DNA of 40,035 nucleotides, taken from NCBI GenBank assembly GCA_021201235.1, contig JAJQFI010000018.1, positions 1-40,035 on the forward strand, in the 5' to 3' direction. This DNA comes from Oscillospiraceae bacterium. GTDB taxonomy: Bacteria; Bacillota; Clostridia; Oscillospirales; Ruminococcaceae. Both the position numbers and the translations under genes were made by a program. The notes under the pieces were generated by a model. The model was not told the origin of the DNA. It saw only the letters and a list, made by a program, of their open reading frames with translations, and searched no databases. Positions 18,392 through 35,804 of this stretch are shown here, piece by piece (positions within the stretch are counted from its first letter, which is position 1; every line of letters starts with the position of its first letter).

Positions 18392-18421
18392 AGTTTACAC
18401 CACGCATTTCCTGCAAGTCAA
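18392..18421 (-). promoter_or_regulatory. Promoter of the ABC exporter operon
   Basis: Minus strand TTGACT, 18 bases, TAAACT, about 26 bases before the first ATG. The CTTAAT repeats lie 12 bases upstream of the -35 box. Confidence 0.65.
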
Positions 18422-18433
18422 TAAATATTAAGA

Positions 18434-18463
18434 AATCTTAATCAAATCTTAATAGTTCTTAAT
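18434..18463. promoter_or_regulatory. Triple CTTAAT direct repeat, candidate response-regulator operator
   Basis: Plus-strand CTTAAT occurs at 18437-18442, 18448-18453 and 18458-18463, with gaps of 5 and 4 bases. Read with the operon it is ATTAAG-N4-ATTAAG-N5-ATTAAG just before the -35 box. The N5 pair matches the streptococcal CiaR box (NTTAAG-N5-WTTAAG). The 20 bases at 18434-18453 recur exactly at 35746-35765. Confidence 0.6.
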
Positions 18464-18472
18464 AATTGGGCA

Positions 18473-18504
18473 TAAAAAGACCCACCGCATGAATGCGGTG
18501 AGTC
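18473..18504 (-). terminator. Terminator of the murF-ddl operon
   Basis: On the minus strand a 12-bp stem (GACTCACCGCAT with ATGCGGTGGGTC, one G-U pair) is followed by TTTTTAT, 30 bases after the amidohydrolase stop. Confidence 0.85.
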
Positions 18505-18533
18505 GCTACAATTCGCTTGTAACGGGATTTTTC

Positions 18534-19361
18534 TTATAGTCCTAAGATATCGGAGATGTTGCCGTAGGCTATCTTTTCGATTTCTGAGTCGGTGAAATCC
18601 ATCTGATTGAGGATTTCGCAGTAGGTTTCATAGATATTTTCCGGCTCCACTCGATAAACCTGAGGATAGTCGGTGGCAAAAATCAGGCGGTCTGCGCCGA
18701 ATTCACGGAGAATGCGGTTGGAGGTTTCAATTCCATAGATGCGAACGAGTTCGGGAAGATAGGTTGAGATGTCGACGTATTCCTTGCCCTCGAGAGCATC
18801 CTGCCAACGGGAGCCGCCCATATGGGAGATTATGATGGTTCCGTCTGGGAAAATTCTTGAGATATTGTGGATTCTCGAAGGAGAGCACAGGTCGAAGTCG
18901 GTTCCGCCGAAAGGATAAGAGTGTATCATTACCGGAATTTTCAGGTCGCATGCCGTTCTTATCACCGGAACCATTTCGAGCGAATCAACCGGAATTCCGA
19001 GGTTTGACGGGTGGAGCTTCAGACCCTTCAAGCCATATTCGTTTACAGCCTGCTCCAAAAAATATGGTGCCGTGTCGTAGAAATATCCTCCTGCCGGGAG
19101 AACATCCGCAAACGAGATGAATCTGCCACCCGAAGAATTCATCATGTCCGCAAGCCACTGATTTGTCCTGTTGCAATCGGGATAATAGGTTGCTCCTTCG
19201 TTTATCGGAACCAAGACGGCTTTCTCGACATTGTATTCGTCCATGAGGCGGATATATTCCTCGCGTTCGGCGTGCTTCCACACCCCATCAATCCAACTGA
19301 GAGTTTCCTCAGGGGCAAGATGAACATGAGCATCGATTTTCCTGACGGTTTTCCAATCCAA
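18534..19361 (-). CDS. Amidohydrolase family (TIM-barrel) metal-dependent hydrolase
   Basis: 275 residues of the amidohydrolase 2 superfamily. The N-terminal metal motif is DAHVHLAPEE (His12, His14). Further metal-site segments are GLKLHPSN, PVMIHSYPFGG, TIIISHMGGSRW and the terminal FATDYPQ (aspartate). The family covers decarboxylases, lactonases and amide hydrolases; the substrate cannot be read here. The start is TTG at 19361, nine bases after GGAGG; no better ATG is in frame. It is the last gene of the murF-ddl operon, 20 bases after ddl, so a link to envelope metabolism is possible but unproven. Confidence 0.85.
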   Translation of the reverse strand: MDWKTVRKIDAHVHLAPEETLSWIDGVWKHAEREEYIRLMDEYNVEKAVLVPINEGATYYPDCNRTNQWLADMMNSSGGRFISFADVLPAGGYFYDTAPYFLEQAVNEYGLKGLKLHPSNLGIPVDSLEMVPVIRTACDLKIPVMIHSYPFGGTDFDLCSPSRIHNISRIFPDGTIIISHMGGSRWQDALEGKEYVDISTYLPELVRIYGIETSNRILREFGADRLIFATDYPQVYRVEPENIYETYCEILNQMDFTDSEIEKIAYGNISDILGL

Positions 19362-19381
19362 ATCGGATTCCTCCTTGCTGA

Positions 19382-20569
19382 TTATACTTTTCCGCCCTTG
19401 ACTCCCTTGGTGCCGCCGAGGTGGACGCCGCTTAAGACGTTCGTATCAAAAGTATAGGTGATGCTTTGCTGTTCGCGGTAGCGCTTGAGGGACAAAGAAA
19501 TCATTCTCTCGAGCAATACTGCGTACTTAACACCCTTGGGCTCCCAGAGATAGAAGGAAAGTGAGCCGGGGATGGTGTTGATTTCGTTGAGGTATACCTC
19601 GCCTGAGTCGTTATCAATCATGAAGTCGATTCGGGCGACGCCGTTGCAGCCGAGAGCCTTGAAAGCCTTGACAGCATATTCCTGAATAGCAGTTGTGTTC
19701 TCCTGAGAGATGTCCGCAGGGATAATGCGCTTGGTGCTCGCCATACCCTTTGAGGACTTCGAGCCGCTCATGTACTTGTCGTTGAAGCTTAAGATTTCAT
19801 CGGCACTGACAGGTCTCTCGCAGACGGAGGCTTCGGCTTCCCTGTCGTCGCCAAGAACCGAGCAGTTGACTTCGGTCAGGTTCGTAATAGCCCGCTCGAC
19901 AAGAATCTTCTTTGAATACTTAAAAGCATCCGAAAGTGCTGTCTCAAGCTTTTCTCTTGAATCCGCTTTTGAAATACCAATACTGGAGCCGAGATTGACC
20001 GGCTTGACAATGACGGGATAGTCGAACCTCTTCTCGATGCCGAGCATGACAAGATTCGGGTTCTCGTCAAATTCGTCGGAATAGCAGAGCGTGCAGTCAA
20101 GAACCGGTATTCCGTTGTCCTTGAAGACACACTTCATGGCGTATTTATCCATTCCGAGAGCGGACGAAAGGACGTCACAGCCGACATACGGCAAACCGAG
20201 CATATTGAGGTATCCGGCAAGGGTTCCGTCCTCAACGTTGGTGCCATGAACTATTGGAAAAGCGATGTCGACATAGTCAACAAACGGCTTCTGGAAAAGC
20301 TTTGTTTCAACTCTGTGGAGCTCCACCCTGTCTCCTACTCTTGCAAAAGTGACGCGATAGCTCTCCGAAAGAAGCTTCTTTATGTCCTTATAGGCTTCGA
20401 TGTCCGCTTCGTGCTCGCCGGTGTACATCTCGCCGGTTTTGGATATGTAGATGGGAATGATGTCGTACTTATCCTTATCGAGGTAGGAGTAAGCTTGAAG
20501 AGCCGAGATTATCGAAATCTCGTGCTCGGTGCTTCTGCCTCCGAAGAGTAGTGCGAGTTTTATTTTCAT
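19382..20569 (-). CDS. ddl: D-alanine--D-alanine (or D-lactate) ligase
   Basis: About 395 residues of the ATP-grasp fold. LFGGRSTEHEIS starts the N-terminal lobe; VKPVNLGSSIGISKA is the ATP loop, and RIDFMIDNDSGEVYLNEINTIPG holds the magnesium ligands. It makes the terminal dipeptide used by MurF. The segment aligned to the E. coli DdlB Tyr216 motif (YDYEAKY) reads SFNDKY, with Phe in place of the tyrosine. Phe here is linked to D-Ala-D-Lac synthesis in Leuconostoc ligase and in the DdlB Y216F mutant. The C-terminal tail is glycine-rich. The start is the ATG at 20569 with GGAAGG upstream; an upstream extension to 20620 runs into murF and is unlikely. Confidence 0.92.
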   Translation of the reverse strand: MKIKLALLFGGRSTEHEISIISALQAYSYLDKDKYDIIPIYISKTGEMYTGEHEADIEAYKDIKKLLSESYRVTFARVGDRVELHRVETKLFQKPFVDYVDIAFPIVHGTNVEDGTLAGYLNMLGLPYVGCDVLSSALGMDKYAMKCVFKDNGIPVLDCTLCYSDEFDENPNLVMLGIEKRFDYPVIVKPVNLGSSIGISKADSREKLETALSDAFKYSKKILVERAITNLTEVNCSVLGDDREAEASVCERPVSADEILSFNDKYMSGSKSSKGMASTKRIIPADISQENTTAIQEYAVKAFKALGCNGVARIDFMIDNDSGEVYLNEINTIPGSLSFYLWEPKGVKYAVLLERMISLSLKRYREQQSITYTFDTNVLSGVHLGGTKGVKGGKV

Positions 20570-20591
20570 ATATTGGTCTTCCTTCCTTATA

Positions 20592-22154
20592 TCAATAATT
20601 ATCGGGTAAGTCGTTTTCAAGTAGTATTATCTTACGTTTTCCGTCGGTTGTCAAGGAGTAAACTGCTCCCATAGCCTCATTTAACGATTCCGCAACGTAG
20701 ATTTTATCCTCCGGGTATCCGGCTTCCGTCAAACCATCGTGGATGGGCTTCGTCTGGGCTGAGCCGACAAGCGCAACGAAATTGCAGATTGCGGCGGCTT
20801 CGGTGCCGAATTCTTTGTTGAGTTCATACTGCTTGGAACCAAGCTCTATCATTCCGGGAGTGACAAGAATTTTCATGCCGTCTGTCATCGAGAGAGCTTC
20901 AAGAGCCGCTCTTGCGCCGGAGGGATTCGAGTTGTAGGCGTCGTCGATTACGGTATAGTCGCCCTTGTTGATGAGCTGTAGTCTGTGGGGCACACTTTCG
21001 AGCTTACGGATAGGCGCTTTGAGCTCTTCAAGGGTGATTCCGAGAGAATTTGCAACGGCGATTGCGCCGCAGATATTCACAACATTATGTCTGCCGATTA
21101 ACGGAGTATGATATTCACAACTCTTGCCGGATGGCGAGTGGACCGTAAACTCGGAACCCTTTTCGGAGATAGTGAGATCGGTTACATAGTATCCGGAGCG
21201 ATCATCAATACCGTAAGAAATATGCTCATAGTTTGATGCAACGGATTGTATATTCTCGTTATCCATGTTCAGGAACAGCATGCCCTTGCCTTTGACGGCA
21301 TCAGCGAGCTCGAATTTAGTCTTTTTGACGTTCTCAATCGAGCCGAAGCTCTCAAGGTGCATCTCGCCTACCGAGGTTATAATTCCGTGAGTCGGATGGA
21401 CTATGTCGCAGATTTCCTTGATATCGCCGACGTTTTTGGCACCCATTTCGCAGAGGAAGATATCGTGAGTAGCTCTTAGTGAGCCTCTGATGGTCTTGAC
21501 CACTCCCAGAGGTGTATTGAAATTGCCGGGGGTTTTGAGGACGTTATACTTTACACTCAGAAGTGAATCGAGGAAGTATTTGACGCTCGTCTTGCCGAAG
21601 CTTCCGGTGATTCCGATTACTGTCAGGTTCGGGCAGTCGGCTAAGATTCTTTTCGCATCGTTTATATAGTGCTTATTGATTGCGAGCTCCATCGGACGGT
21701 TGATGAGGTTTGCAAGAAGAACCATCCACGGAACAAGGAATGTCCACAGAGCCATAAGAGGCACGGAGATTTTCACGGGAATAATCCACAAAAGAATTAT
21801 AGGGATGAGATAGAGCACTGCAAGAGTTGCTATAAGCCTTTTAACACGGGCGGTATATTTGAGCGGGACTTTGTCCTTGCCCTTTGGAATGTCCGGGAGG
21901 GCTGTCAATAGAACCAGTATTGCGGAGAGTATGAGCGGAATCAAAGCATTTGTGCAGATTGCGCTCAGTGCGATTGCAATCACAAGCACTATGAGGTGCA
22001 CCACCATATACGTCGACGCATGTGAGAAAAGCCATTTTGCCTGAACATGGGGCTTATAGGAATTGAGCTGAAACATGTGGATGAAATGGCGTGCTGAAAG
22101 GCAAGCGGCGAATAAGTATACTAAAACGCTCAGTGCCTTGAACAGGTAAATCAT
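20592..22154 (-). CDS. murF: UDP-MurNAc-tripeptide--D-alanyl-D-alanine ligase with membrane-spanning N-terminus
   Basis: 520 residues, longer than the usual ~450. The N-terminal 150 residues hold about five hydrophobic helices, and the Mur ligase core follows: P-loop GITGSFGKTS (residues 181-190), the NFNTPLG substrate motif, the GAKNVGDIKEICD acidic motif, LIGRHNVVN, and YNSNPSGARAALE in the C-terminal domain. It attaches the D-Ala-D-X dipeptide to the peptidoglycan precursor. The membrane segment would hold the reaction beside the MraY/MurG stages (inference). The start is ATG at 22154 after GGAGG. ddl follows after 22 bases, so product and consumer are co-expressed. Confidence 0.93.
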   Translation of the reverse strand: MIYLFKALSVLVYLFAACLSARHFIHMFQLNSYKPHVQAKWLFSHASTYMVVHLIVLVIAIALSAICTNALIPLILSAILVLLTALPDIPKGKDKVPLKYTARVKRLIATLAVLYLIPIILLWIIPVKISVPLMALWTFLVPWMVLLANLINRPMELAINKHYINDAKRILADCPNLTVIGITGSFGKTSVKYFLDSLLSVKYNVLKTPGNFNTPLGVVKTIRGSLRATHDIFLCEMGAKNVGDIKEICDIVHPTHGIITSVGEMHLESFGSIENVKKTKFELADAVKGKGMLFLNMDNENIQSVASNYEHISYGIDDRSGYYVTDLTISEKGSEFTVHSPSGKSCEYHTPLIGRHNVVNICGAIAVANSLGITLEELKAPIRKLESVPHRLQLINKGDYTVIDDAYNSNPSGARAALEALSMTDGMKILVTPGMIELGSKQYELNKEFGTEAAAICNFVALVGSAQTKPIHDGLTEAGYPEDKIYVAESLNEAMGAVYSLTTDGKRKIILLENDLPDNY

Positions 22155-22174
22155 AGGTTATAACCTCCGGTTTG

Positions 22175-22945
22175 TTATAGTGGAATTCCTAAGAACGAAC
22201 GGATTGCACGTTCGCAAAGCTCAGGGGCTTGCAGGAAGGAATAGTGCCCTGCGCCGTTTACCCTTACTAAACCCGCATCGGGGATGAGCTTCTCGAAAGT
22301 CTCGCCATCCGAGATAGGAGTTGCAGTGTCGGTCGTTCCCCAGATTAGTAACGACGGGACGTCGATTTTTGGCAAAAGCTCGGTCAAATCCTCATTTACG
22401 ACTTTTACGAGAGTTGCACGCATTGTGGGAGTGGAGCTCTTATAGTCTGCTGAACCTCTCTTGTCGCGAAGATTGTCGAGTGCATTCGGGAATAGCGCTT
22501 TGATTGGCTTAAAGCTAAGAATGGCTTTGCCTGCTTTGTAAGCGGCAAGACTTAAGTTTTGCTTGAGGGTTTTCTTTGGCTTGATGCCGGCGGCATCTAT
22601 AAAAACTGCTTTGTTGACGCTCGGAAGAAGATTGCCCGAAAGCTCTTTTATCATGATTCTCCCACCGAAACTGTGACCGACGAGACAGACCGGCTTAACG
22701 CCCAGCTCATCCAGAAAAGTATTTACGAATTTCACATAATCGTCGACGCTCCACGGCTCGGGCGGCTCTTCGCTCCCGCCAAAGCCGGGGAGGTCAAGTG
22801 CCAGTGCGGTATATTTTTCGGAAACGGCGGTCATGAGCTTATCGAAAAGCTCCATGTTCGCTCCCCAACCGTGAAGGAAGAGAACCACATCGCCGGTACC
22901 TGTCATTTTATAGTTTATTTTTATGCCGTTTACAGCTATTGTCAT
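22175..22945 (-). CDS. Alpha/beta hydrolase
   Basis: About 256 residues. The oxyanion region is HGWGAN, the nucleophile elbow GHSFGG (Ser92), the acid likely in LLIWGTTDTATP, and the histidine in GAGHYSFLQAPE, giving a complete catalytic triad. The substrate is unknown. The start is the ATG at 22945 with AAGGAG seven bases upstream; the frame stays open to 23128 but crosses the promoter. It is the first gene of the operon with murF, ddl and the amidohydrolase (20-base gap to murF). Hydrolases of this sort are common near cell-wall genes in Clostridia, without a defined role. Confidence 0.88.
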   Translation of the reverse strand: MTIAVNGIKINYKMTGTGDVVLFLHGWGANMELFDKLMTAVSEKYTALALDLPGFGGSEEPPEPWSVDDYVKFVNTFLDELGVKPVCLVGHSFGGRIMIKELSGNLLPSVNKAVFIDAAGIKPKKTLKQNLSLAAYKAGKAILSFKPIKALFPNALDNLRDKRGSADYKSSTPTMRATLVKVVNEDLTELLPKIDVPSLLIWGTTDTATPISDGETFEKLIPDAGLVRVNGAGHYSFLQAPELCERAIRSFLGIPL

Positions 22946-22983
22946 GCTATGCTCCTTAGTGTTCACATAATCTGTCATGATAC

Positions 22984-23012
22984 AGTATATCACTTTGCAA
23001 GAAAAATTTCCA
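22984..23012 (-). promoter_or_regulatory. Probable promoter of the hydrolase-murF-ddl operon
   Basis: Minus strand TGGAAA, 17 bases, TATACT, about 39 bases before the start codon. The -35 box is a weak match. Confidence 0.45.
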
Positions 23013-23083
23013 CTGTTTTTTATACATTTTTGAGCGAATGTCGAATCTGTGAAAATTATATCCGAAATCATACTCATTAGGGC

Positions 23084-23112
23084 TTGAAAAAATAGCGGTG
23101 TTGTGCTACAAT
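23084..23112 (+). promoter_or_regulatory. Promoter of the oxaloacetate decarboxylase operon
   Basis: TTGAAA (23084-23089), a 17-base spacer and TACAAT (23107-23112), 34 bases before the first gene. Confidence 0.75.
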
Positions 23113-23146
23113 ATTTTTGATTCGGCAATTTGAAAGGAGAACTGCT

Positions 23147-23455
23147 ATGATACTTTTAGAAGCGCAAACCCCGTCAACCGCAACCGTGGTCGGTCTCGGC
23201 GTTGGCACGGTTTTCTTCGGACTGATTTGTCTTATCGCAATCTGCTATCTGCTCGGCTTCATCATGAAGAAAGTAAATAAGAGCACGGCTGATAAAGAGC
23301 CTGCTTCTGTTGCTACTTCTCCCGCTGTAAGCGCACCCACTGCTGAGCCTATCGTCAACAGACAGGAGCTTATCGCGACTGTTTCCGCCGTTATTGCGGA
23401 AGAGCTCGGGCAAGACGTAGAAGCAATCAGGATTAAATCTATCAAGAAGCTGTAA
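23147..23455 (+). CDS. oadG: Oxaloacetate decarboxylase (sodium pump) gamma subunit
   Basis: 102 residues. A single membrane helix (GLGVGTVFFGLICLIAICYLLGF, about 17-39) is followed by a positively charged stretch, an Ala/Pro/Ser linker, and a short C-terminal domain ending in IRIKSIKKL. This is the layout of OadG/MmdD-type gamma subunits, which hold the complex together at the membrane. The start is ATG at 23147 after AAAGGAGA; the frame runs back to 23117 only through promoter sequence. It is the first gene of the operon. Confidence 0.88.
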   Translation: MILLEAQTPSTATVVGLGVGTVFFGLICLIAICYLLGFIMKKVNKSTADKEPASVATSPAVSAPTAEPIVNRQELIATVSAVIAEELGQDVEAIRIKSIKKL

Positions 23456-23497
23456 TCTTTATACAGCATTTTTACGACAATGGAGGAAGGTCACATT

Positions 23498-23860
23498 ATG
23501 AAACACTATCACGTTAATGTAAACGGAACCGATTACGAAATCGAAATTGAGGAAATATCCGCAGAAGAAGCTAAGGCTCATCAGGCTTCTGCTCCGGCTA
23601 CTGCGGCTCCCGCCGCAGCATCAGCTCCGGCTTCTGTTCCCGCAGGTGCAGAAACCGTTTCCGCCCCGATGCCCGGAACTATTCTTGATGTCAAGGCTTC
23701 TCAGGGTCAGTCTGTAAACAAGGGCGACGTGCTCATGATTCTCGAGGCTATGAAGATGGAGAACGAAATCATGGCTCCGAAGTCCGGCAAGATTGTCTCC
23801 GTAAACGTATCAAAGGGCGCATCGGTCAAGACCGGCGACGTTCTTTGCGCAATCGAATAA
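23498..23860 (+). CDS. Biotin carrier protein of the sodium-pump decarboxylase
   Basis: 120 residues. A short N-terminal segment (VNVNGTDYEIEIEE) and an Ala/Pro-rich flexible linker (about 30-55) precede a biotinyl domain with EAMKME, the lysine at residue 86 being the biotin site. In enterobacterial OadA this domain is fused to the alpha subunit; here it is separate, as MmdC is in methylmalonyl-CoA decarboxylase. It shuttles carboxyl groups from alpha to beta. The start is ATG at 23498 after GGAGG; an upstream ATG at 23480 overlaps that ribosome binding site. Confidence 0.93.
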   Translation: MKHYHVNVNGTDYEIEIEEISAEEAKAHQASAPATAAPAAASAPASVPAGAETVSAPMPGTILDVKASQGQSVNKGDVLMILEAMKMENEIMAPKSGKIVSVNVSKGASVKTGDVLCAIE

Positions 23861-23905
23861 CAGCGGTTTGTAACCGTATTTACGGAAAGGAGACAAAAAG
23901 CTTAA

Positions 23906-25147
23906 ATGGATGCGATTTTAGATTTTTTGAAAACCACCGGCTTCGCTATGATTGCGGATAACTGGAAGGTTATCATCATGCTTGCTATCTCATGTTTACT
24001 TCTGTATCTTGCGATAGTTAAGAAAATGGAACCGCTGCTCTTGCTGCCGATTGCCTTCGGAATGCTTCTTACAAACATTCCGGGCTCGGAGATGTTCCAC
24101 GAGGTTCTCTTCGTTGACGGACATATTCATTGGGATCTGTTCGGAGGCGCGGCGATAACGCAGGAGTTTATCGACAGTATTGAAAACACGGTTGTGGCGA
24201 GTACGCTTACCGCCGGAGAAACGATTTCTGTAGGACTTTTGGATGTCCTCTACCTTGGCGTTAAGCTTGGTATTTACCCTTGTCTTATCTTCATCGGCGT
24301 TGGTGCACAGACTGACTTCGGTCCCCTGATTGCTAATCCGAAAACATTGCTCCTCGGTGCCGCCGCTCAGGTCGGTATCTTCATTACTTACATCGGTGCT
24401 ACTCTCATGGGCTTCACTTCACAGGAAGCAGGAGCTATTGCCATCATAGGCGGTGCTGACGGTCCTACGGCTATTTACACCACACAGATGCTGGCTTCAA
24501 ACCTCTTGGGTCCGATTGCGATTGCGGCTTATTCGTACATGGCACTTGTGCCTGTTATCCAGCCGCCGATTATGCGAGCTCTCACCACCAAGCAAGAGCG
24601 CAGAATCGTTATGAAGGAGCTCCGCCCCGTTTCCAAGACCGAGAGAATCCTCTTCCCGATTGTTGTTACAATATTTGTAGCTCTTCTTGTTCCCTCTGCG
24701 GCTCCGCTTATCGGATGTCTGATGCTCGGTAACCTCCTGAGAGAATGTGGTGTTACCGAAAGACTTTCAAAGACTGTCCAGAACGAGCTTATGAATATCT
24801 GCGTTGTATTCCTCGGTGTTTCCGTCGGTGCTACTGCTACTGCAAACACCTTCCTGAACCTCAAGACTCTTGGAATTCTTGTCCTCGGTATCGTTGCGTT
24901 CAGCTTGGGAACCGCTTGCGGCATACTCCTTGCGAAGTTCATGAACCTCTTCTCAAAGAACAAGATCAACCCGCTTATCGGTGCGGCAGGTGTTTCCGCC
25001 GTTCCAATGGCGGCGAGAGTTGCTCAAAAAGAAGGTCAAAAGGAAGATCCCTCGAACTTCCTGCTCATGCACGCCATGGGTCCGAACGTTTCGGGTGTTA
25101 TCGGCTCAGCTATTACCGCGGGTGTTCTCATCTCGCTCTTGGGCTGA
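23906..25147 (+). CDS. oadB: Sodium-pump decarboxylase beta subunit
   Basis: 413 residues, about ten membrane helices. [18 protein letters not shown] holds the aspartate that corresponds to the essential Asp203 in OadB of Klebsiella. [15 protein letters not shown] near the start and the repeated [14 protein letters not shown] pattern are also family features. The subunit decarboxylates carboxybiotin while moving sodium ions outward. Its sequence does not by itself separate oxaloacetate from methylmalonyl-CoA or glutaconyl-CoA systems; the alpha subunit does. The start is ATG at 23906 with AAAGGAG about 12 bases away. Confidence 0.94.
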
Positions 25148-25164
25148 TATGAAAGGAGATTTCA

Positions 25165-26601: not shown

Positions 26602-26612
26602 GTTCTGAAAAT

Positions 26613-26650
26613 AAATCTCCCCGAGAGCAAATCTTGGGGAGATTTTTCTT
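26613..26650 (+). terminator. Terminator of the oxaloacetate decarboxylase operon
   Basis: AAATCTCCCC (26613-26622) pairs with GGGGAGATTT (26636-26645), followed by TTCTT. Confidence 0.92.
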
Positions 26651-26677
26651 GCAATGAATGCTACAATGTTATATAAT
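26649..26677 (+). promoter_or_regulatory. Promoter of the GH127 gene
   Basis: TTGCAA (26649-26654), a 17-base spacer and TATAAT (26672-26677), starting inside the preceding terminator's tail. Confidence 0.7.
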
Positions 26678-26707
26678 ACTCTCAGAACCCGAAAGGAGCG
26701 TTATATT

Positions 26708-28624: not shown

Positions 28625-28635
28625 GGTAAAATAAG

Positions 28636-28667
28636 AACAGGAGCTTTTAGGGGCTCCTGTTTTTTTA
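28636..28667. terminator. Terminator between GH127 and the suf operon
   Basis: AACAGGAGC pairs with GCTCCTGTT across an 8-base loop, then a T7 run on the plus strand. On the minus strand it lies right after sufU and is followed by an AT-rich tract, so it may work both ways. Confidence 0.88.
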
Positions 28668-28670
28668 TGC

Positions 28671-29099
28671 TTATTCGGTTTTGCCGAGCATTTCGCTCAT
28701 CGTTCGCCATCCTAAGACCGCACACTTGACACGCGACGGCATGTGTGAGACGTCCTTCAGGGCTCCCGCTTCTTCGAGCTCTTCTATTTCATCATCCGAG
28801 GCTTCACCCTTGATCATCTTCAGGAATAAGTCCGATAGGTGCTGGGCTTCTTCTTTGGTTTTGCCGATTACGAGGTCGAGCATGATGTCGACAGAAGCCT
28901 GAGAGATGGCACAGCCGTCGCCCTCGAAGGAACCGTCGACGATTACGCCGTTCTCGACTTTAAGTTGCAGGACGATATCGTCACCACAGGAAGGATTCAC
29001 TCCCTCAAGAGCGCAGGTTGCGTCCTCAAGCGGTCCTTTATACTGCGGATAGAGATTGTGATCGGTAAGGACTTCGTTATAAAAAGTGTTATTCGCCAA
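28671..29099 (-). CDS. sufU: SufU, IscU-like Fe-S assembly protein
   Basis: 142 residues. The zinc/active-site ligands Cys38, Asp40, Cys63 and Cys126 lie in NPSCGDD, GDGCAISQAS and RVKCAVLGW. The 18-residue insertion of SufU relative to IscU (around residues 95-115, EASDDEIEEL) is present. SufU takes persulfide sulfur from SufS and passes it to SufBCD. It is the last gene of the operon and overlaps sufS by 11 bases. Confidence 0.95.
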   Translation of the reverse strand: MANNTFYNEVLTDHNLYPQYKGPLEDATCALEGVNPSCGDDIVLQLKVENGVIVDGSFEGDGCAISQASVDIMLDLVIGKTKEEAQHLSDLFLKMIKGEASDDEIEELEEAGALKDVSHMPSRVKCAVLGWRTMSEMLGKTE

Positions 29100-30300
29100 G
29101 ACCCATTCGCCTCCTTAGTGTTTTCAGCGACTGCATGAATCGCTCAATGTCAGCTTCGTCGTTATAAAATGCCAGGCTCGCCCGAGCCGACGAACGGATT
29201 CCAAGGAATGTGTGAAGCGGCTGAGCGCAGTGATGACCGGCACGGATTGCTACTTTATCTTCATCCAAAATAGCCGATATATCGTGCGGATGAACGCCGT
29301 CGACGGTGAAGCTGACAATTCCCGAATGATTTCTGTAATCAGAGCTACCGATTATGTTGACATGCGGAATCTTCTGCATCTCCTCAAAAAGGAGCTTTGT
29401 AAGCTCGGTTTCTCTTGAATGGATCGTGTCCATTCCGATACTCTCGATATAGTCGATAGCCGCTGAGAGACCGACTGCGTCGCCTGCGCTGACGGTTCCC
29501 GCCTCGAACTTGTGCGGGAGCTCGGCATAGGTTGCACTGTCCCTCGTGACGTACTCTATCATCTCGCCACCTGATAAGAATGGCGGCATTTTCTCAAGGA
29601 GCTCTTCCTTGCCATAGAGAACGCCGATTCCCATCGGAGCCATCATTTTGTGACCGGAGAATGCGAGAAAGTCGCAATCGAGTTCGGTTACATCAATAGC
29701 CATGTGCGGTGCGCTCTGGGCGGCATCTATAAGCACTACGCCGCCGTTCTTGTGGACGAGCGAAATAAGCTCCCTCACGGGATTCTCGCTTCCCAGAACG
29801 TTCGAAACCTGTGCCATTGCGGCGAGCTTGGTGCGCTCGGTTACTGCCTCTTTCAGCTTGTCCAAGGGGTACGAACCGTCCGGCTCACATTCGAGATACT
29901 TTAGCGTCGCCCCGGTTTTCTTGGCGACCATCTGCCACGGGAGGATATTGCTGTGATGCTCTGAGATTGTAATTAATATCTCGTCGCCTTCATGCAGAAA
30001 ATTCAAGCCGTAGCTATATGCAACCAGATTTATACTTTCGGTGGTGTTGCGGGTGAATACTATGTCGCTCGCCTTGGGAGCATTGATGAACTGTGCCACT
30101 TTTTCACGGGCATTTTCGTAATGCTCAGTGGCATCATAGGCAAGCGAATATAAGCCTCTCAGCGGATTCGCATTGGAATGCTCATAAAAGTCCCTGACAG
30201 CTTCAAGAACAACCGCCGGTCTTTGCTCGGTGGCGGCGTTGTCGAGATAGGCTATATCCGTACTCTTCAAAAGAGGAAAATCGTCTTTATAGTTACGCAT
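29089..30300 (-). CDS. sufS: SufS cysteine desulfurase
   Basis: 403 residues, pyridoxal-phosphate aminotransferase fold. The N-terminus YLDNAATEQRP, the SEHHSNILPW histidine, the PLP lysine 218 in SGHKMMAP and the catalytic cysteine 358 in RAGHHCAQPLH identify the group II desulfurase. It removes sulfur from cysteine to form a persulfide passed to SufU. It overlaps sufD by 8 bases and sufU by 11, so the three are translationally coupled. Confidence 0.96.
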   Translation of the reverse strand: MRNYKDDFPLLKSTDIAYLDNAATEQRPAVVLEAVRDFYEHSNANPLRGLYSLAYDATEHYENAREKVAQFINAPKASDIVFTRNTTESINLVAYSYGLNFLHEGDEILITISEHHSNILPWQMVAKKTGATLKYLECEPDGSYPLDKLKEAVTERTKLAAMAQVSNVLGSENPVRELISLVHKNGGVVLIDAAQSAPHMAIDVTELDCDFLAFSGHKMMAPMGIGVLYGKEELLEKMPPFLSGGEMIEYVTRDSATYAELPHKFEAGTVSAGDAVGLSAAIDYIESIGMDTIHSRETELTKLLFEEMQKIPHVNIIGSSDYRNHSGIVSFTVDGVHPHDISAILDEDKVAIRAGHHCAQPLHTFLGIRSSARASLAFYNDEADIERFMQSLKTLRRRMGLGE

Positions 30301-31330
30301 TTTCGCCTCCGTCTGCCTCGGGAGATATGAGGCTGTGAGCCAAAGTCTTTATATCCTCGTCGGGAATGTGCGAAATTATCGCATCAAGCTTGGCATGGGC
30401 GATTATGTCCTCAGCCGCCTCGGAAGAGATTCCACACGAGCCGAGATAGAAGATGATATTGTCATCAAGTCTGCCGATGGATGCGCCGTGGTTGCCCTCG
30501 ACGTCCTCTTCGTCACATAGAATGAGCGGAATTGTCTGGTTGACCTGACTATCGCCGAGAAGAAGGATGTCCTCGTTTTCGGTGCCCTTTGCTCCGGCAC
30601 AACCCTTGATGAGGTCAATCGTGCCACGGAAAATCTTGGTCGAGTCGTTCTCGAGTATTCCCGAAGCGAAGATATTCGATTCGGTTTTCCTGCCGGCGTG
30701 TCGGACAACGTAATTCATGTCAAGGCTCTGATTCGTCTTTACTCTGTAGCCCGAATTCGCCGAAAATGCGCTGTGCTCGCCTGATAAATCCACGGAAACC
30801 GCGACATATTCGTTATTGCCGCCGAGCTCTAATTTTGTAAGATTAAAGCTTGCATTTTCTTCGCAGGTGCAACCGATGTCGGTTATGACATTGGAATCGG
30901 TTCCGACAGACTGGATTACGGATAAATCGACGGTTGAGCCTGAGTCAGCCTGAATCTTGATTTCAAGGACTGCTGTCCCCTCGCCTGTCATCACGACAGA
31001 CACTGGGAGAACGGCGTTTTCCTTTGCGTGGATGAAGAGCCTTGCCTGCTTGCCGCCGGTGAAGTCGTAGCTAATAACTGCCAGAGATGCTTCGCTTCCG
31101 GATTCTATAAGAACCGAGTCACCGGTAAGAAGAGTGCCGAGCTCTCCCGCGGCGGATTTGACGTTATCAAGAGTCTCGTTATGAATGATCCTGAGCTCTT
31201 CTGGAAGCTTGGCGATTTCAGGGGTGCAGGAATCTGCTGGGATTTCACCTTGATAGTTTGCTTCATTCATCTTGAGGCTGTTCCATGTCCTGACTGGGAG
31301 CGGATTTAAAATAATGCTTTCGGTTGTCAT
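30293..31330 (-). CDS. sufD: SufD, Fe-S scaffold component
   Basis: 345 residues, shorter than SufD of E. coli (about 420) but usual for Clostridia. The C-terminal beta-helix and helical part carry GCAGAKGTENEDILLLGDSQ and GASIGRLDDNIIFYLGSCGI, the conserved SufB/SufD core. The N-terminal part is poorly conserved. It forms the SufBC2D scaffold with the two upstream genes. sufB ends 12 bases upstream. Confidence 0.93.
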   Translation of the reverse strand: MTTESIILNPLPVRTWNSLKMNEANYQGEIPADSCTPEIAKLPEELRIIHNETLDNVKSAAGELGTLLTGDSVLIESGSEASLAVISYDFTGGKQARLFIHAKENAVLPVSVVMTGEGTAVLEIKIQADSGSTVDLSVIQSVGTDSNVITDIGCTCEENASFNLTKLELGGNNEYVAVSVDLSGEHSAFSANSGYRVKTNQSLDMNYVVRHAGRKTESNIFASGILENDSTKIFRGTIDLIKGCAGAKGTENEDILLLGDSQVNQTIPLILCDEEDVEGNHGASIGRLDDNIIFYLGSCGISSEAAEDIIAHAKLDAIISHIPDEDIKTLAHSLISPEADGGENA

Positions 31331-31342
31331 CTTGTCCCCTCC

Positions 31343-32752
31343 TTAGCCTATTGCGCCCTTCATCTCAAGGCGGATGAGGTTATTCATCTCTACGGCGTAC
31401 TCAAGTGGAAGCTCCTTTGAGACGTTGTCGGCAAAGCCGCCGACAATCATAGCTCTTGCATCCTCCTCGGAAATGCCTCTTGACATGAGATAGAAGACCG
31501 CATCGTCGCTGATTCTGCCTATTCTCGCCTCATGTCCGACATCTGCGTCGCCGGTACGGATATCCATTGCCGGAATTGTGTCGGAGCGGGAAATGTCGTC
31601 GAGCATCAGAGACTGGCAGGAAACCGCCGCTTTGCTCTTGTGGGCGTTCTTGCCGACGATTACGGAGCTGCGGAACGTGCTGATTCCGCCGTCCTTTGAG
31701 ATTGATTTTGTGTTGATATATGAAGACGTATTCTCCCCGATATGGACGACCTTTGCGCCGGTATCGAGGTTCTGACCCTTGCCGGCAAATGTAATACCGG
31801 TGAACTCCATACGGGAATTCTTTCCTTTCAGAATTGTCATCGGGTAAAGGTAAGAGACATGCGAACCGAACGAGCCGGAAACCCACTCCATCGTGCCGCC
31901 CTCTTCGACAGTTGCGCGCTTGGTGTTGAGGTTATACATGTTCTTCGACCAGTTTTCAATGGTCGAATATCTGAGTCTGGCGTTCTTGCCGACAAATAGC
32001 TCGACGCATCCGGCGTGGAGGTTTGCGACGTTATACTTCGGTGCGGAGCAACCCTCGATAAAGTGGAGGTCTGCGCCCTCATCTACTATGATTAAAGTGT
32101 GCTCGAACTGTCCGGCACCGGGGGCATTCAGTCTGAAATAGGACTGAAGCGGAATCTCGACCTTGACATGCGGCGGGACATAGACGAACGAACCACCCGA
32201 CCAAACTGCGCCATGAAGTGCGGCAAATTTGTGATCTGTTGGCTTGACAAGCTTCATGAAGTGGCTTCTTATCATGTCGGCATATTCGCCGTGCATCGCG
32301 CTTTCGAGGTCCGTGTATACTACACCCATCGCGGCGACTTCCTCGCGGACGTTATGATAAACGAGCTCAGAGTCGTACTGCGCGCCGACACCTGCCAAAG
32401 ACTTTCTCTCCGCCTGCGGGATTCCGAGGCGCTCAAATGTATCTTTGATTTCGTCGGGAACATCGCTCCACTTGGCACTCATCTTGGTGTTGGGTCTTAC
32501 ATAGGTGACGATATTGTCCATGTCGAGCCCGTCAATCGGCGGTCCCCAGTCAGGGACTGACATTGAATTATATATCTGGAGCGACTGGAGGCGGAACAGG
32601 TTCATCCAAGCGGGGTCGTTCTTCTCTTTCGATATCTTATCGACGATTTCCTCGGTGAGACCGGCATTAAGCTTGTAGTTATCGGTGTCTTCATTGCGGA
32701 AATCGTACATGTTGCGGTCGATGCTTTCGACCTGACTTTTTTCTTTCATCAT
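31343..32752 (-). CDS. sufB: SufB, Fe-S scaffold subunit
   Basis: About 469 residues, normal for the family. VYTDLESAMHGEYADMIRSH, FVYVPPHVKVEIPLQSYFR and HYEG-type core residues (here HFIEGCSAPKYN) are typical, as are DDISRSDTIPAMDI and EARIGRISDDAVFYLMSRG. It is the main scaffold for cluster building. Two adjacent ATGs (32752, 32749) follow the sufC stop by 4 bases; a longer frame to 32830 runs inside sufC and is not credible. Confidence 0.95.
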   Translation of the reverse strand: MMKEKSQVESIDRNMYDFRNEDTDNYKLNAGLTEEIVDKISKEKNDPAWMNLFRLQSLQIYNSMSVPDWGPPIDGLDMDNIVTYVRPNTKMSAKWSDVPDEIKDTFERLGIPQAERKSLAGVGAQYDSELVYHNVREEVAAMGVVYTDLESAMHGEYADMIRSHFMKLVKPTDHKFAALHGAVWSGGSFVYVPPHVKVEIPLQSYFRLNAPGAGQFEHTLIIVDEGADLHFIEGCSAPKYNVANLHAGCVELFVGKNARLRYSTIENWSKNMYNLNTKRATVEEGGTMEWVSGSFGSHVSYLYPMTILKGKNSRMEFTGITFAGKGQNLDTGAKVVHIGENTSSYINTKSISKDGGISTFRSSVIVGKNAHKSKAAVSCQSLMLDDISRSDTIPAMDIRTGDADVGHEARIGRISDDAVFYLMSRGISEEDARAMIVGGFADNVSKELPLEYAVEMNNLIRLEMKGAIG

Positions 32753-32756
32753 GCGC

Positions 32757-33509
32757 TCACTTTCCCGCCAGCTCGATATACTTTTCGTAGCCGTTCTGAT
32801 TGATTTCATCGACCATCGAAGCGTCACCATCTGCGACGATATGACCGTCGACTATGACGTGGGTCTTGTCGATATCGAAGGCATCAAGGATTCTTGTCGA
32901 GTGGGTTATTACGAGGAGTGCGCCGTTCTCTTCCTCGAGATAGGTCTTGATTCCCTGAGAGACGAGCCTTACTGCGTCGACGTCGAGACCGGAGTCGGTC
33001 TCATCAAGGATTGCGAGCTTCGGGTGGAACATAAGAAGCTGTAAAATCTCAGTCTTCTTTTTCTCGCCGCCTGAGAATCCGACGTTTAGATCTCTCTTGG
33101 CATAGGATGGGTCAAGCTGAAGAAGCTCCATTGCGGCGGCAAGCTTCTTCTTGAAATCAAAGAGCTTGATTCTCTTGCCGGTTCTCTGCTCGAGAGCGCT
33201 TCGGAGGAAGCTCTCGACGGTAAGTCCCGGAACCTCCAACGGCGTCTGGAACGAGAGGAACATTCCGGCTTTTGCACGCTTATCCGGCGATTCGGAAGTT
33301 ATATCGTTTCCGTCAAAGACAATTTTGCCTGAGTTTACAGTATACTGAGGGTTGCCCATCAGGGCATAGCCGAGGGTCGACTTGCCGGCGCCGTTCGGTC
33401 CCATCAGAACATGGGCTTCGCCCTCGTTAATCTGCATGCTGACGTCATGCAGAATGTGTTTATCGTCAATCGAGACGTTTAAATTATTAACACTCAAAAG
33501 TGTAGACAC
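32757..33509 (-). CDS. sufC: SufC, Fe-S assembly ATPase
   Basis: 250 residues, soluble ABC-type ATPase. Walker A GPNGAGKS (residues 37-44), signature FSGGEKKK and Walker B LAILDETDSGLDVDA with the D-loop are visible; GGEKK with lysines is specific to SufC. Its ATPase cycle drives change in the SufBCD scaffold. The start is a GTG at 33509 after GGAG, about 11 bases away. It is the first gene of the operon sufCBDSU, the order usual in Firmicutes and in many Clostridia. Confidence 0.95.
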   Translation of the reverse strand: MSTLLSVNNLNVSIDDKHILHDVSMQINEGEAHVLMGPNGAGKSTLGYALMGNPQYTVNSGKIVFDGNDITSESPDKRAKAGMFLSFQTPLEVPGLTVESFLRSALEQRTGKRIKLFDFKKKLAAAMELLQLDPSYAKRDLNVGFSGGEKKKTEILQLLMFHPKLAILDETDSGLDVDAVRLVSQGIKTYLEEENGALLVITHSTRILDAFDIDKTHVIVDGHIVADGDASMVDEINQNGYEKYIELAGK

Positions 33510-33547
33510 TATATTTCACACTCCGTTTTTATTATAGACATCATAAA

Positions 33548-33568
33548 AACCAACCTTTATGGTGGGTT
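33548..33568. promoter_or_regulatory. Dyad at the suf transcription start: candidate Rrf2 operator or attenuator
   Basis: AACCAACC (33548-33555) faces GGTGGGTT (33561-33568), with a 5-base centre and one mismatch. It lies just downstream of the suf -10 box. On the minus strand the hairpin is followed by TTTTTAT, so it could also be a weak attenuator. Confidence 0.45.
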
Positions 33569-33574
33569 AATGTT

Positions 33575-33603
33575 ATAGTATCACATTTGAAGCCTCTTGT
33601 CAA
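33575..33603 (-). promoter_or_regulatory. Promoter of sufCBDSU
   Basis: Minus strand consensus TTGACA, 17 bases, TACTAT, giving a leader of about 60 bases before sufC. Confidence 0.8.
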
Positions 33604-33652
33604 GGGAATATGCCCCATTTCGGACTCCTCAAATCAAGATTTTTGTCGGGAC

Positions 33653-33681
33653 TTGAAATTAAGCTCGCATTGGTGTATACT
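33653..33681 (+). promoter_or_regulatory. Promoter of the Rrf2 regulator gene
   Basis: TTGAAA (33653-33658), a 17-base spacer and TATACT (33676-33681), 24 bases before the ATG. It is divergent from the suf promoter. Confidence 0.75.
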
Positions 33682-33704
33682 TAATTCAGAATGGAGTGAA
33701 TGCA

Positions 33705-34115
33705 ATGTTTATCTCATCAAAGGGCAGATACGCCCTGAGAGTTGTTGTTGATATAGCCGAGAGGCAGACTTCAGAATATATCCCGCTTCAGGAGATTGCC
33801 GACGGTCAGCATCTCTCGGAAAAATACCTCGAAGCCATCGTCAAGAGCCTTGTTTCGGGCGGCGTTCTGGAAGGACAGCGAGGAAAAGGCGGCGGCTACA
33901 AGCTGAGCCGCTCCCCAGACCAGTGCACTGTCGGCGAAATCCTGAGGCTCACCGAAGGCGAACTTGCCCCGGTCTCCTGCGTCGACAAGTCTGTCGAGCA
34001 GTGCGAGCGCCGCTATGAGTGCCGATCCTACCCCATGTGGCAAGGTCTCGACAAGATGATTTCGGATTATCTGGATGGGTTTACGATTCAGGATCTGATG
34101 AGGAATGAAGATTAA
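33705..34115 (+). CDS. Rrf2 family regulator with IscR-like cysteines
   Basis: 136 residues. The N-terminal winged helix (SSKGRYALRVVVDIAERQ, then IADGQHLSEKYLEAIVKSL) and the wing GKGGGYKLSRSP are typical of Rrf2 proteins. Cysteines 92, 100 and 106 sit where IscR has its 2Fe-2S ligands (92, 98, 104), so an Fe-S cluster is likely; the spacing C-x7-C-x5-C differs slightly from E. coli IscR. Its position, divergent from sufCBDSU with only about 195 bases between start codons, makes feedback control of suf the natural reading. The start is the ATG at 33705 with GGAG nine bases upstream; a GTG at 33696 overlaps that site. Confidence 0.9.
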   Translation: MFISSKGRYALRVVVDIAERQTSEYIPLQEIADGQHLSEKYLEAIVKSLVSGGVLEGQRGKGGGYKLSRSPDQCTVGEILRLTEGELAPVSCVDKSVEQCERRYECRSYPMWQGLDKMISDYLDGFTIQDLMRNED

Positions 34116-34118
34116 AGA

Positions 34119-34147
34119 AAACCGACGGTTGTTGCCGCCGGTTTTTG
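34119..34147 (+). terminator. Terminator of the Rrf2 gene
   Basis: AAACCGACGG and CCGCCGGTTT form a 10-bp stem with one mismatch, followed by TTGATTTT, just after the stop codon. Confidence 0.75.
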
Positions 34148-34153
34148 ATTTTA

Positions 34154-34588
34154 TTACTTGCTGAGCATCAAGTTTGTAGCACAGAATTTCGGATAATCTT
34201 CGTAGTCAAAACCATCTTTCACTCGCACAAGACCTCGTACAATAATTTCCAGTTCCCTTACGCCACTTACATCAATCTTGAAGTCTATGGTGTCATATGT
34301 ACTACTTGTTATATCATAGCACTCATACAACAGTACACCATCTCCGTATACCTTAAATGTACTAGTCCAATCGTCAGAGTAATACAGTGAGCCATACGCT
34401 CTAAACAAGGTTCCAGAAAGTTCTGAGTACGAAGCAGCAAGATTGTATACTATGTAAGTTTGTTCTCCTGAAGAGTCTTTACTCCACTGCCAAATGATAT
34501 TATTTTTATCGTAGGTATTGCCGGAAACATCTGTGTATACAAAGCTAAAAAATAGTACCAACACTCTCAGATGTTCCTTTTCTAACAT
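34154..34588 (-). pseudogene. NPCBM-like C-terminal domain, split off by a frame change
   Basis: About 135 residues after the junction: YTDVSGNTYDKNNIIW, a run of beta strands with FRAYGSLYYSDDWTSTFKVY, then DVSGVRELEIIVRG. This matches the NPCBM/NEW2-type carbohydrate-binding fold (RAYGSLY...FKVYGDGVLLYE...DVSGVRELEI). There is no start codon with a ribosome binding site near its 5' end. Removing one T from the T6 run at about 34551-34556 joins it in frame to the lipoprotein upstream (KGTSESVGTIF then SFVYTDVSGN). The intact product would be a lipid-anchored sugar-binding protein of about 460 residues. Confidence 0.75.
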
Positions 34589-35543
34589 AATCTAAAGAAG
34601 TAAGCGCAATCGGTATATACTCCTGATACTCCGCTATTTTAGCATCGATATTGTCGCCAGTAAGACCGGAACGCTGAAGAACGAGGATAGCGGCTTCATA
34701 ATCCTTGTCGGAGCCGAAGGCTTCTTCGGCTTCGTCGAAGTCGGCAGCTTCCCAAAGTGAAACGACCTTGGTCACTTCGACATCATATAAATCTTCACCA
34801 TCAAAGTCGAAATAATCATATTCATTGTAAAGAACAGCACACGCATCACTATAGTTACCTTCGGCAACAAGAGCCTCAGCATCAGCAATTACGGCATCCA
34901 TACAAGCTGTATAAATGACATCGAGTTCAGCATGGTATTCAGCATAATCTTCAAATACATTCATATAACTATAAAGATTAACCCATGCCGTCTCGAAATC
35001 CTCACTCGCAATAAGTTCGTCTGCTTCCGAAATCAGCTGCGAAAGTAGATTTTCGAGGACATTTTCGCTTTTCTCCTTTGCTGACTCATAGTTGATGTCA
35101 TCAGAAGATACTTGTTCATAAGCCGCATAGGCATCCAGGTATTCCCCACTTTCCTCGAGTGAGATGGCTTCCTCATAGTAATTCTTTGAGGTCTGCAGGT
35201 TTTCCAATTCGGCATAAGAGCTTAAAAGCAGTGAGTAGCTATAAATGTCAGCACGTTCTATAACTTCTAAAGTAAGTTCCGCTTCGTCATAGGTCATTTC
35301 TCCATTATTGTAACTTTCAATAACATTAGAAATAATCTCGGAGAGCTGATTCTCAACCTCGCTTTCAAGTTGAAGATTCCCAGATATGCTCTCATAATAA
35401 ATCTCATTGGCGGTCAGATATTCTGAATTGTTAATAGCGTTGATTACTTGTTCTACAGGATCAGTAACTACACCTGAACACCCTGTGGGCATAATAAAGA
35501 TTACAATGCATAAAATACTTGCAATAGCTTTCCTGAATTTCAT
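34545..35543 (-). CDS. Lipoprotein with tetratricopeptide-like helical repeats, truncated at a T6 run
   Basis: About 332 residues. The signal peptide MKFRKAIASILCIVIFIMPTGC has a lipobox (MPTGC). The mature part is acidic, helical and repetitive (AAYEQVSSDDINYESAKEK, AEALVAEGNYSDACAVLYNEY, EEAFGSDKDYEAAILVLQRSG), in the style of TPR units. The frame stops at VGTIF, where a one-base shift would continue into the NPCBM-like domain. The start is uncertain: the ATG at 35543 fits the signal peptide but lies about 20 bases from GGGGAGG. A nine-codon frame starting TTGGGGAGG, seven bases after AGGAGGG, ends one base before that ATG and might pass ribosomes to it. The substrate and role are unknown; sugar sensing or capture is a guess. 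Confidence 0.75.
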   Translation of the reverse strand: MKFRKAIASILCIVIFIMPTGCSGVVTDPVEQVINAINNSEYLTANEIYYESISGNLQLESEVENQLSEIISNVIESYNNGEMTYDEAELTLEVIERADIYSYSLLLSSYAELENLQTSKNYYEEAISLEESGEYLDAYAAYEQVSSDDINYESAKEKSENVLENLLSQLISEADELIASEDFETAWVNLYSYMNVFEDYAEYHAELDVIYTACMDAVIADAEALVAEGNYSDACAVLYNEYDYFDFDGEDLYDVEVTKVVSLWEAADFDEAEEAFGSDKDYEAAILVLQRSGLTGDNIDAKIAEYQEYIPIALTSLDYVRKGTSESVGTIF

Positions 35544-35635
35544 ATCAATTTTTGCACGATTCAAGCCTCCCCAAACCGTGCCCTCCTTCCAGTATGTACT
35601 AAATAAGATGAAATTTAAATACAAATTTCACCTAC

Positions 35636-35663
35636 ATTATAACATACAATTCCCCCCCCGCAA
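35636..35663 (-). promoter_or_regulatory. Promoter with a G8 tract in its spacer
   Basis: Minus strand TTGCGG, 16 bases, consensus TATAAT (35636-35641). The spacer and -35 box include eight consecutive G (C8 at 35652-35659 on the plus strand). Gain or loss of one G would change the -35 to -10 spacing, as in phase-variable promoters. Confidence 0.55.
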
Positions 35664-35709
35664 GTACAAAGTAGAACGTCGAACAAAGCAAAAATTGTTG
35701 AAAGTGCAC

Positions 35710-35744
35710 AATAAAAAAGAAGCCGACGTGATGAGCGTCGGCTT
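35710..35744 (-). terminator. Minus-strand terminator hairpin upstream of the 35.5 kb lipoprotein
   Basis: A 9-bp perfect stem AAGCCGACG / CGTCGGCTT with a 7-base loop is followed on the minus strand by CTTTTTTATT. It lies in the intergenic region, before the lipoprotein promoter. It would stop antisense transcripts coming from 35836-37700; no gene on that strand ends here. Confidence 0.75.
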
Positions 35745-35745
35745 A

Positions 35746-35786
35746 AATCTTAATCAAATCTTAATCTTTGAGATATTGCTCTTAAT
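35746..35786. promoter_or_regulatory. CTTAAT direct repeats, second copy of the candidate operator
   Basis: CTTAAT at 35749-35754 and 35760-35765 (N5 gap) plus a third at 35781-35786 inside the promoter spacer. The 20 bases at 35746-35765 are identical to 18434-18453. The repeats end 10 bases before the -35 box of the gene at 35836, in the opposite orientation to the copy at the ABC operon. Confidence 0.6.
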
Positions 35787-35804
35787 AGTTTGATATGGTA
35801 TACT
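35776..35804 (+). promoter_or_regulatory. Promoter of the duplicated lipoprotein gene
   Basis: TTGCTC (35776-35781), a 17-base spacer and TATACT (35799-35804), 32 bases before the ATG. Confidence 0.6.

Follow-up and report, generated by a model that had tools for sequence, protein, structure and literature searches.

Analysis of a 40,035-nucleotide stretch of DNA from an Oscillospiraceae bacterium (contig JAJQFI010000018.1, from here on called the window) revealed a short direct repeat, CTTAAT-N5-CTTAAT (the box), in front of an ABC exporter operon and of a lipoprotein gene. The box is real and conserved and most probably serves as the operator of a two-component regulon; it is ordinary in kind, being of the OmpR-family type. 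Judging from sequence patterns, it is likely the operator of an autoregulated two-component system composed of the response regulator RR52 and the sensor kinase HK52. No description of the box or of the RR52/HK52 system was found in the literature searched. An earlier note on this DNA had suggested that one OmpR-family regulator may control both window promoters as an envelope regulon, and this proposal is supported by the conservation of the box, its presence at no fewer than four operons and a target set consisting mainly of envelope and export genes.

The earlier note had started from two identical 20-mers, AATCTTAATCAAATCTTAAT, whose coordinates (18434-18453 and 35746-35765) were confirmed; identity extends one further base leftward, giving 21 bp in total. 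Each 20-mer contains two CTTAAT units with an 11 bp period, a third unit is found nearby in both places, and the 17-bp core of both boxes reads CTTAAT-CAAAT-CTTAAT. The proposed distance of 10-12 bases to the -35 hexamers holds for the 20-bp block, which lies 12 bases from TTGACT of the minus-strand exporter operon and 10 bases from TTGCTC of the plus-strand lipoprotein gene; measured from the 17-bp core, the distances are 15 and 10 bases, respectively. Relative to the two genes, the boxes are oriented in opposite directions, as had been noted. When up to one mismatch is allowed, the window contains two box matches compared with 0.18 expected, a number reached in 2 of 100 shuffles.

The whole genome (2.06 Mb in 32 contigs, labelled G000, with the window as contig 31) contains four exact copies, all with the spacer CAAAT, while a reversed control gave none. 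All four are intergenic relative to open reading frames (ORFs) of at least 70 amino acids, rather than scattered inside genes, which the earlier note had named as a refutation, and all four precede ABC exporter or lipoprotein genes. The one-mismatch search it had recommended gave nine matches (the four exact copies included), equal to the nine control matches, which places one-mismatch sites as a group at background. The sole such site upheld in G000, C22:168907, is counted as a fifth target because the corresponding gene in genome G001 (L073) has a perfect box. Within the genus, exact boxes were found in 21 of 25 genomes, with 60 copies compared with four control matches, whereas outside the genus one of 16 genomes carried the box (two matches, compared with seven control matches). 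The two matches in this genome, G031, overlap each other and have no gene start close behind. Four genus copies are located inside ORFs of at least 70 amino acids (L086, L090, L097 and L109), these ORFs being unconfirmed as genes.

The box occupies a preferred promoter register. With offsets counted from where the first unit starts, a -10 element (TATAAT with at most one mismatch) lies at 50 or 51 bp at 31 of 58 distinct sites, while every other offset between 17 and 109 is represented by at most six sites; with two mismatches this test is uninformative, control offsets reaching 22 of 58. The units at 0 and +11 are present at every site by construction of the search, and 16 of the 58 have a further CTTAAK at +33, while 6 have one at +21. 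The main form can be written as CTTAAT-N5-CTTAAT-N10-(-35)-CTTAAT-N11-(-10), with the start codon roughly 55-85 bp past the box in many recognised targets. A second form, found in the MacB and the lipoprotein/ABC-2 promoters of the window's clade, carries the box reversed and 15 instead of 10 bp from the -35, a shift of half a helical turn.

Conservation in relatives, raised as a test in the earlier note, is pronounced. Counting G000, a perfect box is in place before 10 of 11 orthologs of the 210-residue lipoprotein behind box 1; the eleventh (L288, genome G020) has no box in its locus, although one precedes a different gene some 3 kb upstream. Nine of these promoters (own included) could be aligned, L286 being left out despite its perfect box because its neighboring inverted unit failed the alignment pattern; box and neighboring units are invariant except for one spacer base, although the promoters had been chosen in part for carrying the inverted unit. 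Box 2 precedes all six orthologs of the N-terminal part of its lipoprotein (own included; four are shown in the alignment), and no perfect box was found at loci matching only other parts of this 534-residue protein (L298-L303). That the two window sites arose by chance or by recent copying and are devoid of regulatory role could be argued from the shortness of the identical stretch (21 bp) and from the control-level count of one-mismatch sites, but the large excess over control within the genus, the promoter register and the retention of the box before orthologous operons in up to ten genomes whose flanks differ make this almost inconceivable.

In agreement with the earlier note, which had listed no two-component genes in the window, the OmpR-type DNA-binding domain PF00486 has seven matches in the genome, none of them in the window. 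The corresponding regulators were named RR47 to RR53 after loci L047-L053. The box shows the traits of OmpR/PhoB-type operators, namely tandem direct repeats with a period of about 11 bp near the -35 and the presence of receiver plus winged-helix regulators in the genome. RR52 combines these two domains (PF00072 and PF00486), and its recognition helix is nearly invariant within its family. It is named as the regulator mainly because of the autoregulation pattern found upstream of RR52 genes. A scan of genome contigs for the architecture CTTAAT-N5-CTTAAT-N10-TTKNNN-CTTAAK returned 67 loci, and relatives of the seven regulators were looked for in each of them; the gene behind the architecture was read in the 36 that were clostridial or similar by title, leaving 31 unread, among them L205 (Pelotomaculum, clostridial). 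In 11 of the 36, the gene directly behind the architecture encodes an OmpR-type regulator that matches RR52 better than any of the other six regulators of G000, at 48-55% identity; the first base of the architecture lies 77-186 bp before the gene. The frame at L197 looks broken, with two pieces and a short frame. The 11 records apparently lie outside the genus, since their identity is below the 59% or more observed within it. At L196, the gene behind the architecture is glycosyltransferase-like and similar to the glycosyltransferase gene that has a box in the genus; the regulator relatives at L190, L215 and L218 are either not RR52-like at the 48-55% level or not located directly behind the match.

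The converse approach used RR52 loci chosen without regard to the box. RR52 matches were identified in 29 of 31 genus genomes, the copy in G022 being broken; a sample of 147 genomes from the order, G000 among them, yielded matches in 57. Outside the genus, the 29 best-scoring loci of 62 match rows were used, the other 33 not being given as loci. Within 200 bp upstream of RR52, the pair TTAA-N7-TTAA occurs at 24 of these 29 loci (1.03 in shuffles), and at 22 of them it is joined by a third TTAA at +33 (±1; 0.07 expected). The numbers for the genus are 14 of 29 for the pair (1.10 expected) and 11 of 29 with the third unit (0.05 expected). A stricter CTTAAK score (at least 14 of 18) was reached by 16 of 29 genus RR52 loci (0.58 expected) and by 5 of 29 outside loci (0.36 expected), compared with 0 of 30 loci of the regulator RR51; the outside families score low because their unit is mostly CTTAAA. 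All 11 genomes of the window's clade carry a promoter variant before RR52, CTTAAT-N17-CTTAAT-N11-TAcAAT (N16 in one). Taken together, the upstream patterns make autoregulation of RR52 by way of this operator family very probable. Genome G022 is without an exact box and its RR52 frame is not intact, and G005 has neither an exact box nor RR52.

Several observations weigh against RR52. The commonest unit in the wider order is CTTAAA and not CTTAAT. The 11 clade genomes, G000 included, are without the 11-bp pair at RR52 and score at background in the strict test; their units are 23 bp apart (22 in one), and the shuffle frequency of two such units within 200 bp is 0.008-0.028 per locus. Four more genus loci (L262, L263, L264 and L279), with units at other spacings as judged by eye, also fail the pair test, bringing the failures to 15. 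Genome G015 has three boxes, and RR52 and HK52 were not found in its assembly (190 contigs, 96% complete), while G013 and G018 have RR52 and no exact box. In G031, which is not a member of the genus, three units form a box-like run, yet RR52 had no match there. A single simple activation geometry does not account for box 1 and the MacB box, which are reversed and 5 bp farther from the -35. Further points of this kind concern RR51, a near-universal OmpR-type regulator with orthologs in 30 of 31 genus genomes. Presence fails to separate it from RR52, since each is missing from just one of the 21 genus genomes that bear the box (20 of 21). A box in genome G003 (L102) heads the gene row murT-gatD-like-lipoprotein-RR51-HK51, where RR51 is the only relative of the seven regulators detected by tblastn in the fetched surroundings of any box. 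The pair TTAA-N7-TTAA is missing within 200 bp upstream of RR51 at all 30 loci, a weak control because this stretch is mostly coding gene in the loci read in detail. We nevertheless consider binding of the box by RR51 improbable: neither RR51 nor its kinase was found in G014, which has six boxes (assembly of their neighbors there was not checked), RR51 has no box upstream, and the regulators encoded behind the architecture at the 11 loci are closer to RR52 than to RR51.

CiaR belongs to an OmpR-family system of streptococci tied to the cell envelope, and the earlier note had read the box as a CiaR site. The sequence part of this reading stands, as the reverse strand of the box fits NTTAAG-N5-WTTAAG and resembles the CiaR form NTTAAG-N5-TTTAAG; the promoter geometry is different. 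According to PMC3091779, CiaR promoters are searched for as TTTAAG-N5-TTTAAG with a TATAAT -10 element ten bases further on. Box 1 is instead 15 bp from a -35 with a further 18 bp to the -10, and box 2, reversed, is 10 bp from its -35. The genome encodes a separate CiaR-like regulator, RR53, whose recognition helix VVWVYISYLRKKL is close to that of CiaR, VVEVYVSKVRKKL (PMC3091779); the helix of RR52 differs from that of CiaR. RR53 has the best helix match, yet orthologs (94% identity or more) are present in only 7 of the 21 box-bearing genus genomes, the best match in the other 14 being at most 39%. Moreover, the promoter after the RR53 kinase gene and before the next operon has a CiaR geometry of its own, TTTAAG-N5-CTTAAG-N10-TATACT, which the window promoters lack; the CiaR hint therefore fits this promoter better than the window boxes. 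Similar repeats were seen in 11 of 12 RR53 loci read. Its frame in G000 is also interrupted by an internal stop. RR53 was thus rejected as the regulator on its limited presence and its distinct promoter, and we regard it as a very unlikely candidate. The stop is in frame within the receiver domain, and open copies exist in relatives; the adjoining operon encodes, by eye, a polyphosphate-polymerase-like protein and a CotH-like region.

The PhoP-like RR49 was likewise set aside, a different repeat, TGTTAA-N5-TGTTAA, being located upstream of its pst neighbors; its gene has an in-frame stop in G000. No TTAA-N7-TTAA pair was found around RR47, RR48 and RR50 in their G000 surroundings, the only ones searched, and the RR52 locus of G000 has no such pair either. 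RR47 is an orphan with a glutamate (VLLEVTLP) in place of the expected phospho-acceptor aspartate and may perhaps be phosphorylation-independent; an HtrA-like protease, assigned by eye, is encoded two genes downstream.

Among known systems, the enterobacterial PmrA (BasR) box is similar in being a direct hexamer repeat with a 5-bp spacer, recognised by an OmpR-family regulator whose regulon is of the antimicrobial-peptide and envelope type. PMC3973317 gives the half-sites CTTAAG and XTTAAT for Salmonella and CTTAAT / CCTAAG for the Klebsiella pbgP box. Relative to CTTAAG-N5-NTTAAT, the second half-site of the box is exact and the first has T for G. However, RR52 scores 122.3 bits against the PmrA model NF007928 (cut-off 330), which ranks 25th of 102 families and is far outscored by the VanR model (235.7 bits), and the phylum is different, as are the third unit at +33 and the unrelated targets. 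VanR/VanS is the closest curated family by profile for RR52 and HK52, is also of the OmpR type and shares an envelope context, but both scores are under the cut-offs (235.7 of 350 bits for RR52 and 150.2 of 400 for HK52), and HK52 has additional membrane helices. VanR binds 12-bp sites with the consensus (T/C)CGTANGAAA(T/A)T (PMC4405338), and by eye this site bears no likeness to the box. Reading the ORFs at L052 brought up no van resistance genes, though no search aimed at such genes was made. Pho boxes share direct repeats with an 11-bp period with the box, but G000 has its own PhoP-like gene, RR49, with the repeat described above.

HK52 starts with a single predicted membrane helix, followed by an extracytoplasmic part of about 270 residues. 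Next come four more hydrophobic stretches, the final one of a length that could accommodate two helices, and then the kinase core. Eight of the loci encoding the 11 outside regulators were examined for a neighboring kinase; six gave a kinase frame, all six with the HK52 layout. Structure prediction of full-length HK52 was poor (predicted local distance difference test score (pLDDT) 63.9, predicted template modeling score (pTM) 0.37, six sequences), the Foldseek matches shown being mostly histidine kinases. The extracytoplasmic part alone (pLDDT 62.5) had no match in the Protein Data Bank with an E-value below 0.88. Owing to the low-confidence prediction and the missing sensor match, the signal is deduced only from the targets.

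We infer the following scheme, including its signal, phosphorylation control, binding, stoichiometry and activating rather than repressing sign. HK52 would sense a change in the envelope and phosphorylate RR52, a head-to-tail dimer of which would fill the two CTTAAT units just upstream of the -35, while the third unit, at +33, may be occupied by an additional protomer. Bound RR52 would then recruit RNA polymerase to the exporter operon and the lipoprotein gene, and further targets would be two MacB/FtsX-type exporter operons, the gene pair headed by a C39-like peptidase and RR52/HK52 itself. Alternatively, the regulator could be a repressor, its units around the -35 and in the spacer blocking RNA polymerase until a signal arrives. 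A third unit between -35 and -10 in many promoters and several fair -35 hexamers (TTGACT, TTGATT) would suit repression. Activator sites of PmrA and PhoB usually lie upstream of the -35, and the constant pair occupies just this position, which is the usual one for activators in OmpR-family promoters; several other -35 hexamers are poor (TTTTTT, TTTTAT). Repression is considered unlikely, and activation by RR52 is preferred.

About 6 kb were fetched on each side of box copies to read their targets (Table 1). Families were assigned by Pfam for L070, L101, L102 and the named target genes of G000, and otherwise by eye from N-terminal likeness, except where marked. The envelope theme is strong and incomplete, as some sites have single or unclear targets. 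Behind box 1, the gene for the 173-residue protein is counted in the operon because it overlaps the ATPase gene. The 534-residue ORF behind box 2 looks like a fusion in sequence comparisons: residues 1-368 match a family of about 386 residues in relatives, residues from about 349 to 534 match a different paralog of about 500 residues, and a further remnant follows directly downstream (37433-37681). Terminator-like hairpins with a minus-strand T-run adjoin both boxes (18479-18504 and 35720-35744), the latter having no obvious minus-strand gene to terminate.

Table 1 Coordinates and loci of the box, associated genes and regulators. Plain numbers are window positions; C, contig; L, locus.
Feature	Location	Strand	Basis or remark
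Box 1, CTTAATCAAATCTTAAT	18437..18453	+	Sequence match; reads ATTAAG-N5-ATTAAG along minus-strand operon
Extra CTTAAT unit adjoining box 1	18458..18463	+	Invariant in nine aligned promoters
Inverted unit (ATTAAG on +, CTTAAT on minus strand)	18427..18432	-	5 bp upstream of -35; invariant in nine aligned promoters
Promoter-like TTGACT-N18-TAAACT, exporter operon	18392..18421	-	
Lipoprotein-like protein, 210 aa, first gene behind box 1	17734..18366	-	Matches in 11/31 genus genomes
ABC-2-like permease	16895..17737	-	Pfam PF12679, under curated cut-off
Second membrane subunit, probably permease	16120..16905	-	No Pfam match
ABC ATPase	15488..16117	-	PF00005
Small secreted or anchored protein, 173 aa	14970..15491	-	No Pfam match
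CmpB-like membrane protein, possible last operon member (86-bp gap)	14410..14883	-	PF06541
Box 2, CTTAATCAAATCTTAAT	35749..35765	+	Sequence match
Third CTTAAT unit near box 2	35781..35786	+	32 bp after first unit; overlaps -35 end
Promoter TTGCTC-N17-TATACT, lipoprotein gene	35776..35804	+	-10 at offset 50 from first unit; not listed by consensus promoter scan
Lipoprotein-like ORF, 534 aa, behind box 2	35836..37440	+	Sequence comparison with relatives
Exact copy heading exporter operon (ABC ATPase, 620-aa protein, MacB/FtsX permease)	C9:51184		
Exact copy heading 186-aa protein, two ORFs and ABC ATPase	C9:77845		First ORF matches FtsX; second not scanned
One-mismatch site heading gene pair	C22:168907		First member C39-like peptidase
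RR52 (VanR-like) and HK52 (791-aa sensor kinase)	G000:C9:204782-207907		Outside window
RR51	C28:26923-27642		
RR53 (L053)	G000:C22 ~301.1-301.87 kb		
RR49 (L049)	G000:C22:333556-334182		Beside pst genes
RR47 (L047)	G000:C28:141401-142072		
Box before murT row (L102)	L102 (G003:C9), 5183-10831		
MacB-type exporter behind box	L038, L061, L065, L066, L074, L080, L085		
182-197-aa protein heading FtsX operon	L039, L060, L067, L075, L084, L089		
Lipoprotein + ABC-2 exporter	window, L062, L064, L068, L076, L079		
Second lipoprotein	window, L069, L078, L082		
GT2 glycosyltransferase	L057, L070, L087, L095, L105		
175-181-aa membrane protein	L091, L094, L100, L103, L106		
DUF218 protein	L101, L107		
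C39-like peptidase	L073, L104		
MurT ligase	L102, L109		
Histidine-phosphatase-like gene	L093, L099		By eye
Esterase-like gene	L086		Pfam
RR52-type loci apparently outside genus	L193, L194, L197, L199, L209, L213, L216, L220, L228, L230, L243		All Clostridia

A broader reading can be put forward tentatively, with slightly less than even expectation. The VanR-like regulator and its multi-pass kinase might represent an undescribed autoregulated system found across much of the order, with an operator of three rigidly spaced units around the -35 (TTAA at 0, +11 and +33) whose geometry is kept while its hexamer drifts, being CTTAAA in other families versus CTTAAT here. One clade might have turned this operator to envelope defence in an inverted form with a compensating 5-bp shift, which would run the exporter and lipoprotein operons. 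The assignment links a regulator, its DNA code and a target set, including exporters, lipoproteins, a GT2 glycosyltransferase, C39 peptidases and a MurT ligase, from sequence alone for largely uncultured gut Clostridia. If true, the box would allow genes of the envelope response to be predicted in many genomes with no need of experiments, and the tolerance of an OmpR-type activator for reversed operators could be gauged from the inverted sites as a natural test.

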